This document shows positions 34,001 through 37,000 of a DNA stretch of 64,000 bases, piece after piece. The first letter of the stretch is position 1. Each line of letters starts with the position of its first letter. A program made the position numbers and the translations under genes. Location of the stretch: assembly GCF_045679555.1 (NCBI RefSeq), contig NC_092091.1, positions 12,239,918-12,303,917 of the forward strand, given 5' to 3'. The DNA comes from Salvelinus alpinus (Eukaryota; Chordata; Actinopteri; Salmoniformes; Salmonidae). The notes beneath the pieces are model-generated. The model had not been told where the DNA came from and searched no databases. It saw nothing but the letters and a program-made list of their open reading frames with translations.

Positions 34001-37000
34001 GGAATCTTTATTTTCTTTTTGCTGAAGGTATACTTGGTTCACCAACATCTACCCAGAAAAAAATCTTAGGTACATATATTTCTGTCTTTTCCTAGTACAT
34101 AGAATGGACATTGGCAGTAGTGCAGATGGGCAGCAACCCAGAATATATTATTTAAAAAAGAACACACCCAACTTTACGTTAAAAAAATTATAACTAAACA
34201 TTCTTTAATAATTGATAGATACCTGTCCCTCTGTGCCATCCGCTGTCACCATGGTGACAGAATGATGCCCTTGTGACATCAGCTCATGGGCTGGGATGGT
34301 GATGGTGGTACCTTCTTGTGTTACCATGGTAATTGTACCGCCCATCGCTTGCAAATCCGCCTCGGAGATACTGACCTGAAGTATAACAACATCAGCTCGT
34401 TTTCTAACTACTCCAACCGTCACAACAGTCACTCATCAACATACATGTACGAATGGTGTTTCTTCATTTCCTCTATAAAAGAGTTCTTGAAGAACAGTTC
34501 CTGTTACGCACCCCAGCAATGCATTATTTAAGTTTAAAGATCATTCTTTACAGCGAAAAGACATGAAAAGCAAAGAATAATATAAAATCCATCCATATGC
34601 AAGGGAGAGAAGGTGAGCCAATAGTAGGGGAAACACTGATGTGTGACATGGATGCTTACCTGCTGCGTTGTTCCATCCTGTGTGACTAGAGACACTTGGT
34701 GCTGTTGCCCTAGAACCTCTGGGGTCCCCACAGACACCTGTTCCGACAAGGAGTCCTCCACCTCCACTACAGATGTGTAGGTGACCTCGGGATCATCAAT
34801 GGCATCTGAATCAGACAGGGAAAACAGGGTCAAGCTTTGAAAACCACAGAATAAATGAATAAGGTCAGGTTTAACGTGTTGATGACAGGTCATCTGAGAT
34901 TGAATGAGGGCCAATGAAAGTCATCTCCGTATCCAAGCAATCACTGCAATTTGTCAGTATTCAACATAATTTAAGAACTCAATGATTTCATCATTCGCCA
35001 TTCCTTTAGAAATAGAGGTAAACTGCTATTCTGTCTACTATACGTCACAGCTGAGTATAGAGTGCAGTATTACTTTTCCCTCTCGTTTATGTGCACAGGC
35101 GTACACACAAACACTGACCTGTGGGTTGCTCAAAGTAGGCCTGCTGCTCCTCTTCGATGGGCTCCGTGTCGTTGTGCGCTGTGCGCTTGTGCATGGCCAG
35201 GGTGGAGATCTGTTTGTAGGTCTTCCCACAGTAGTTGCAGTTGTAGGGCTTGCAGGGCGTGTGGACCACATGGTGCTTGTACAGGCTGGAGTACTCCGTG
35301 AATCGCTTATCACACCCTGGCACGGTGCACACGTAAGGTTTCTCTCCTGGACACATGGACAGGTACAACACATTTATTTCTTTGCCCAATGATAACACTC
35401 AGTCAAGGTATATTGTGATTGCTTCAAAAAAAGAACATGACATTTTGGTCCAAAAAGCCTCCATCAGACAGCTCCTTCCTATATGGCCATGTAAATAACA
35501 TGTAAAGAAGAAGTCTAGTATTTTGGTACATGCCTGTATGAATCCTCATGTGGTTCTTGTAGTTGGTGGCGCTGGCGAAGGATCGCCCGCAGCTGGGCTC
35601 AGCGCAGTAGTACGGCCGCTCTCCGGTGTGCGTGCGGATGTGAACCTTGCGGATGTTGGAGGTAGTGAACGACCGTCCGCAGCCCTCAACAGGACATTTG
35701 AATGGCTTCTCTCCTGAAAACAACACAAGGCAGGACAAATGAGAGTAAGACTACGTCTCAGAATGTACCTTCGACATAATGGGGGTTCGAGAGTGAGAAA
35801 CCTGAGATCTATCAATGGCCTATATTGAAAATAGCAACCTGACCCCAACACAAGGCAGAGGAGACCATGACAAAGAAAACTCAATAGGTGGAAGAATAAG
35901 TGGAACCCATCCTCTTCCTTGTACCAGTGCGTTTCTACCGGGAGTGTATTGTACCAGTGCGTTTCTACCGGGAGTGTATTGTACCAGTGCGTTTCTACCG
36001 GGAGTGTATTGTACCAGTGCGTTTCTACCGGGAGTGTATTGTACCAGTGCATTTCTACCAGGAGTGTATTGTACCAGTGCGTTTCTACCGGGAGTGTATT
36101 GTACCAGTGCATTTCTACCGGGAGTGTATTGTACCAGTGCGTCTCTACCGGGAGTGTATTGTACATTTACATTTACATTTAAGTCATTTAGCAGACGCTC
36201 TTATCCAGAGCGACTTACAAATTGGTGCATTCACCTAATGACATCCAGTGGAACAGCCACTTTACAATAGTGCATCTAAATCTTATTGTACCAGTGCGTC
36301 TCTACCGGGAGTGTATTGTACCAGTGCATTTCTACCGGGAGTGTATTGTACCAGTGCATTTCTACCGGGAGTGTATTGTACCAGTGCATTTCTACCGGGA
36401 GTGTATTGTACCAGTGCATTTCTACCGGGAGTGTATTGTACCAGTGCGTTTCTACCGGGAGTGTATTGTACCAGTGCGTTTCTACCGGGAGTGTATTGTA
36501 CCAGTGCGTTTCTACCGGGAGTGTATTGTACCAGTGCATTTCTACCGGGAGTGTATTGTACCAGTGCATTTCTACCGGGAGTGTATTGTACCAGTGCATT
36601 TCTACCGGGAGTGTATTGTACCAGTGCATTTCTACCAGGAGTGTATTGTACCAGTGCGTTTCTACCGGGAGTGTATTGTACCAGTGCGTTTCTACCGGGA
36701 GTGTATTGTACCTGTGCATTTCTACCGGGAGTGTATTGTATCAGTGCATTTCTACCGGGAGTGTATTGTACCTGTGCATTTCTACCAGGAGTGTATTGTA
36801 CCAGTGCATTTCTACCGGGAGTGTATTGTACCAGTGCGTTTCTACCGGGAGTGTATTGTACCAGTGCGTTTCTACCGGGAGTGTATTGTACCTGTGCATT
36901 TCTACCGGGAGTGTATTGTACCTGTGCATTTCTACCAGGAGTGTATTGTACCTGTGTGTGTCCGTGTGTGCTTCTGTAGGTCTCCGGATGTTTTGAAAGA

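Follow-up and report, generated by a model that had tools for sequence, protein, structure and literature searches.

How does a minisatellite come to start at the very first base of an intron and to carry, unit after unit, the splice donor that lies there? The question is raised by a zinc-finger gene in the window, the whole 64-kb stretch of DNA analyzed here from the 2.37-Gb genome of Salvelinus alpinus (928 contigs). The gene, carried on C6 and taken to be znf143 from its similarity to the human protein, has coding exons that join into 1869 nt and a 622-aa open frame with no inner stops. Its predicted protein reads as seven fingers, and the 60 of 230 PDB matches listed are all other zinc-finger proteins. 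The intron at issue follows the finger-3 exon and measures about 1.2 kb, or about 200 bp once the array is subtracted. The relevant features, in window coordinates and with a slash marking the exon–intron boundary within a motif, are:

39999 to 31038, minus strand: znf143 gene, 15 coding exons.
36952..37077, minus strand: coding exon 9, which codes for the whole of finger 3 and the C-terminal part of finger 2 and terminates in ACACACAG.
36952..36956, minus strand: exon-end CACAG, recurring before four exon-proximal decoys.
36946..36951, minus strand: authentic donor GTACAA (CAG/GTACAA), weak.
35919..36951, minus strand: 30-bp minisatellite of 22 full units, 8 bases of a unit, an insertion, 8 full units and a final partial GTACAA.
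36916..36926, minus strand: decoy CACAG/GTACAA, same as the real junction (donor base 36921).
36886..36896, minus strand: decoy CACAG/GTACAA (donor base 36891).
36766..36776, minus strand: decoy CACAG/GTACAA (donor base 36771).
36706..36716, minus strand: decoy CACAG/GTACAA (donor base 36711).
36165..36283, minus strand: 5′-truncated 3′ end of a high-copy retroelement, 119 bp, inserted in the array.
35534..35713, minus strand: following coding exon, which supplies the acceptor and codes for fingers 4 and 5.

The array is a minisatellite, with a 30-bp period and 30 full, near-identical tandem units, and it adjoins the exon and repeats that exon's donor, as a donor-providing minisatellite of the IFI6 kind should. 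The boundary reads CACACACAG on the exon side and GTACAATACACTCC on the intron side, and the array runs from there down to 35919 (TRF row 35919-36956, period 30, 34.4 copies, score 1428). Anchoring on TACAA places 32 unit starts, from 36951, which is intron base 1, to a partial GTACAA at 35924-35919 that closes the array and is followed by unique GGAAGAGG. The original prediction had correctly set the unit to begin at the GT of this intron; its range of 35921..36952 is refined to 35919..36951, 36952 being the last exon base. The pentamer preceding the starts is CACAG five times, CACTG 26 times and TAAAT once. One start, at 36741 behind CACTG, reads ATACAA and has no GT. Downstream of the real donor there are exactly 30 GT decoys (four CACAG, 25 CACTG, one TAAAT), the number that had been given as an upper bound. 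The CACAG starts comprise the authentic 36951 and the decoys at 36921, 36891, 36771 and 36711, and these four bear out the earlier statement that several decoys are preceded by AG. They equally uphold the claim that exon-proximal units copy the exon end, the extent being refined from ACAG to the 5-nt stretch CACAG. All four lie within the first eight of the 30 decoys (P 0.0026 under random placement, although neighboring units are not independent), and the CACAG ending is confined to the first nine of the 32 unit starts. In the window, CACAG precedes GT at just 18 of 7954 GT sites on both strands, five of the 18 being the authentic site and its four decoys, which makes it improbable that the five bases match by chance. 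Among the 30 full units there are seven types, with variation at five positions, and the mean divergence from consensus is 0.83 per 30 bases. Identical units are neighbors in 12 of 28 adjacent pairs, a count reached by 2.2% of shuffles and expected from local unit turnover. With up to three mismatches allowed, a degenerate 28-mer derived from the unit matches the 64-kb window 30 times, against a shuffle mean of 0.00.

Could the unit have come from elsewhere in the genome? A three-unit DNA query returned 13 matches, all of them inside the window array (one candidate region, in a search that skips simple repeats and very common words), and on this ground an origin as a copy of a dispersed satellite or a mobile repeat was rejected. 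Across the genome, a 14-mer taken from the unit matches 40 times, 29 of them in the array and 11 elsewhere, the latter against 13 for its reversed control; a scan of viral contigs for the unit gave none. The 119-bp insertion recurs at 98-100% identity in at least 39 places (40 of 447 candidates scored), and the element extends further upstream at 18 listed loci, which identifies the window copy as the 5′-truncated 3′ end of a retroelement. Its insertion is ruled out as the source of the array, since units lie on both sides of it and one and the same rare unit type, GAGAC, flanks it. The same 3′ end adjoins or sits inside a minisatellite at six of the 19 loci read (L018, L020, L021, L024, L026 and L028), as it does at 36283-36165 in the window, and at those loci the array begins within a few bases of it; L020 and L021 are 3.6 kb apart and probably form one array. 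Either the retroelement inserts preferentially into arrays, or arrays tend to form next to its tail.

The age of the donor is suggested by other copies of the gene. When exons 7 to 9 served as a DNA query against the same genome, five regions matched besides the window copy, the fifth being C2:115.14M, none of them above 84% identity. The search found no array-free orthologue or close duplicate of the C6 copy, the other pieces being at most 84% identical over 63-129 bases. Only 5 nt of the unit are exon-derived and, with no such counterpart, the other 24 nt are without a proven source. The copies on C5 (L050) and C33 (L051) are about 90% identical to each other (89.1%) over 6.7 kb, introns included, and are read as sister znf143 copies. 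At both, the finger-3 junction is CACACAG/GTACAAAACTTG, that is, CACACAG/GTACAA, and the TRF rows of these loci contain no array there. The znf143 duplicates, to which the original prediction had pointed for comparison, have the same donor without the array. Since ACAA at +3 to +6 has a probability of 0.0003 under a human donor matrix, GTACAA is rare as a donor and is most likely common to the copies by descent, which makes the donor sequence older than the window array. The intron has the same position in L049, L050, L051 and L052, which rules out its gain by tandem duplication.

A related gene on C12 (L052), presumably znf76-like from its exon reading MESLGLQAV, has two more arrays of this kind:

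L052 7240-7544: first C12 array, 24 bp × 12.7, at the same intron position as the znf143 array.
L052 8004-9120: second C12 array, 45 bp × 24 (units of 43-49 bp), in the next intron.

The C2 copy (L049, C2:47860001-47870000) is for the most part collinear with it, the aligned pieces being 64-89% identical (mean 77.6%; finger-exon pieces 87-89%). The two are probably a duplicate pair and ohnologues, the latter label being an inferred one since they diverge more than C5 and C33 do. The C2 copy has in-frame stops in its finger exons and looks decayed. At the first C12 junction, twelve 24-bp units follow an exon that terminates in GTCCGCACACACACAG, making 13 donors, each behind CACACAG. At the second it terminates in CACATGAGAATACACACAG, followed by 24 units; here GTAAGA stands behind TACACACAG 24 times, the authentic site included, and then comes CATATGAGAATACACACAG/GTGAGA, the last of 25 donor copies, which has 16 exact bases in common with the exon end. 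Neither junction bears an array in C2. The first is single-copy, CACACACAG/GTAGCAGGACACACACACACTCTGC, matching the distal end of the C12 array, and presents the array-free state of that locus; the second has two copies of ATGAGAATACACACGGGT, with 17 exact bases of the exon end shared. The first C12 array may either have arisen after C12 and C2 parted or have been lost from C2, and the second looks like growth from a two-copy duplication common to both. Both znf76-like duplications span the exon end and the donor. Three arrays of eight copies or more (period 15-60) occur in the finger-exon regions of the five family loci, and each of them starts at an exon end, a small sample from one gene family that includes the window finding itself. 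Two more arrays, at L053 1129-1475 and L054 7383-7655, lie further downstream and not at a known exon.

Together, these comparisons make it very probable that the znf143 array was born by duplication across the exon–donor junction and then underwent ordinary unit turnover. Seeding by the splice donor, the central claim of the original prediction, is well supported by the array-free CACACAG/GTACAA of C5 and C33, the two exon-end arrays of C12, and the array-free and two-copy states in C2. Short direct repeats, among them the donor plus the exon end before it, would most likely have founded the array through slipped replication or break repair, with turnover of units enlarging it afterwards. The finger linker HTG, coded as CACACAG/G, may predispose these exon ends by setting a short CA-rich stretch beside the donor. 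An alternative is that an unrelated intronic minisatellite happens to touch the exon, its proximal units having gained CACAG later by conversion. Arrays are indeed frequent in this genome, with 13 TRF rows in 65 kb of 21 other loci (at least eight copies, period 15-60, some rows overlapping, and 19 of the 21 loci chosen by a repeat). Contact with one end of an intron of some 200 bp would not be very rare, and CACTG stands in 25 of the 30 decoys. Such an abutment is nevertheless improbable, given that GTACAA is an old donor already present in the sister copies and that three of three family arrays begin at exon ends.

Whether a donor-seeded array affects splicing depends in part on how its copies compare with the original. 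Donors were scored with a human donor matrix, including an assumed penalty for two GC donors, and U1 duplex energy served as a second measure. The real donor, at -0.14, ranks 13th of the 14 znf143 donors by matrix and 10th of 14 by U1 duplex energy. The four CACAG decoys equal it in the 9-mer, and the other 26 of 30 score lower: CTG decoys reach -2.14 by matrix and -4.1 kcal/mol by U1 duplex, compared with -0.14 and -7.6 kcal/mol for CAG sites. The top donor-like sites of exon 9 and the intron are in the retroelement fragment, at 36234 (TAG/GTGAAT, 3.07) and 36218 (1.47), and a site at 35768 near the acceptor (1.31) also outscores the real donor. The GC donors of the gene are at 37452 (AAG/GCAAGG) and 35533 (CAG/GCATGT); the sister copies on C5 and C33 have GT at the counterpart of the latter, and their translation HHLKVKHTH implies GT at that of the former. 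The real donor does not stand out in RNA folding: at the 150-nt setting it is less often unpaired than three of the four CACAG decoys. CTG decoys have, in all three folding settings, a lower mean unpaired frequency than CAG sites. Structure is rejected as the sole discriminator, since no clear gain in accessibility sets the real donor apart from the CAG decoys. Over the first 340 nt of exon end plus array, structure is weaker than in shuffles (z +4.3), so there is no sign of a structural switch. A within-unit hairpin of CCYGG with CACWGG, seen in the fold, was dropped because the two variants are not strictly linked across unit types.

The original prediction went on to suggest that array length could tune znf143 splicing, which is a guess. 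Under this proposal splicing would use internal units as donors, and the number of copies would determine what fraction of transcripts is truncated or retains the intron. The real donor is weak and the four decoys that match its 9-mer stand at +30, +60, +180 and +240; moreover, two downstream repeat units of human IFI6 serve as donors and yield three mRNAs, as reported in PMC4526556. The proposal is nonetheless unlikely, because the real site outscores 26 of the 30 GTACAA decoys and because intron retention or the use of any decoy meets an in-frame TAG at codon 317, within unit 1, as had been foreseen for the retained intron; selection should disfavor such use. A donor-born array would be tolerated because most units have CTG for CAG and make poorer donors, so that splicing picks the first site. 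Since decoy use amounts to loss of function, the gene is likely to be unaffected or to bear a small load of nonsense transcripts rather than to be finely tuned. Recursive splicing, with CACAG/GTACAA as an acceptor joined to a donor and stepwise removal restoring the same donor, is highly improbable: four decoys do juxtapose AG and GT, but no polypyrimidine tract lies ahead of CACAG (CACTCCCGGTAGAAATGCACAG) and the intron is only about 1.2 kb long.

On C12, the 24-bp array of the znf76-like gene can be read through in the frame of the exon, as repeated RTHTGSGT; 11 of its 12 decoys are GTAGTG (0.79), slightly above the first site GTAGTA (0.38), and the last equals the first. Donors in the 45-bp array are strong (7.01), but there the exon frame meets a stop in the second unit. 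A tentative and rather doubtful extension would make HTG-linker exon ends (CACACAG/GT) recurrent minisatellite birthplaces across fish genomes, the CA-rich stretch against the donor being the cause. Decoy use in the znf76-like (RTHTGSGT)n might then add eight residues per unit to the finger 3-4 linker, giving DNA-binding isoforms by repeat number.

The window holds further arrays. The 23-bp array at 1528-2079 has donor-like words in its units, GGGTAAGT or GGGTGAGC (ACAGGGTAAGT or ACAGGGGTGAGC), and the minus-strand unit of the 34-bp array at 61721-62099 (× 11) has a donor-like GTGAGT (GTCAAGTGAGT); no known exon lies beside either, and they were not counted as further donor cases. At 8932-9082, a 32-bp unit × 4.7 (GGTAGCCTAGTGGTTAGAG...) is next to the apparent remainder of what we take to be a tRNA-like SINE, in a presumably swap70-like gene. 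Several overlapping arrays of CTCCTCTTCTTGC-type units occupy 15196-15642, with long open Glu- or Arg/Lys-rich frames on the minus strand.

Among known systems, the closest is the minisatellite of human IFI6 (6-16, G1P3), reportedly described by Turri, Cuin and Porter in 1995 and said to lie at an exon end. The znf143 array is likewise an exon-end minisatellite with a donor in its repeat units. Use of its decoys would bring a stop, whereas the extra donors of IFI6 are used, by the account in PMC4526556; in the znf143 family, unlike IFI6, the source is also shown, by paralogues that lack an array and by the two further arrays of a related gene. In the Rogers model, as outlined in PMC4974935, introns are gained by tandem duplication of AGGT segments, with fission yeasts cited for a multiple case of 24 bp. 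Tandem duplication of an AG/GT stretch multiplies splice signals in both; there exonic DNA is duplicated into a new intron, whereas in znf143 the donor and some exon end are duplicated into an existing one. The intronic minisatellites of Caenorhabditis elegans CeRep25B, which PMC4039745 links to alternative splicing and to over-represented motifs in the repeat family, similarly lie near splicing choices, but the znf143 array is locus-specific and copies the donor itself. Tandem 5′ splice sites, in the sense sketched in PMC2423196, are several donors close together; the znf143 set is clustered too, but is 30-fold periodic and minisatellite-made. A literature search of titles and abstract openings found no donor-seeded array for znf143, znf76 or salmonids, which is not proof of absence. 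As far as these sources go, the principle is already known from human IFI6, and what is new is its recurrence in one gene family with visible stages of origin.

The birth of a minisatellite is rarely visible. Here, the exon–donor boundaries of one gene family present several of its stages within one genome: a junction in single copy, another in two copies, and complete arrays of 12 to 30 units. Two questions become testable now: whether splice junctions with short exon-end repeats are hot spots of array birth, and how splicing keeps choosing the first of many near-identical donors.
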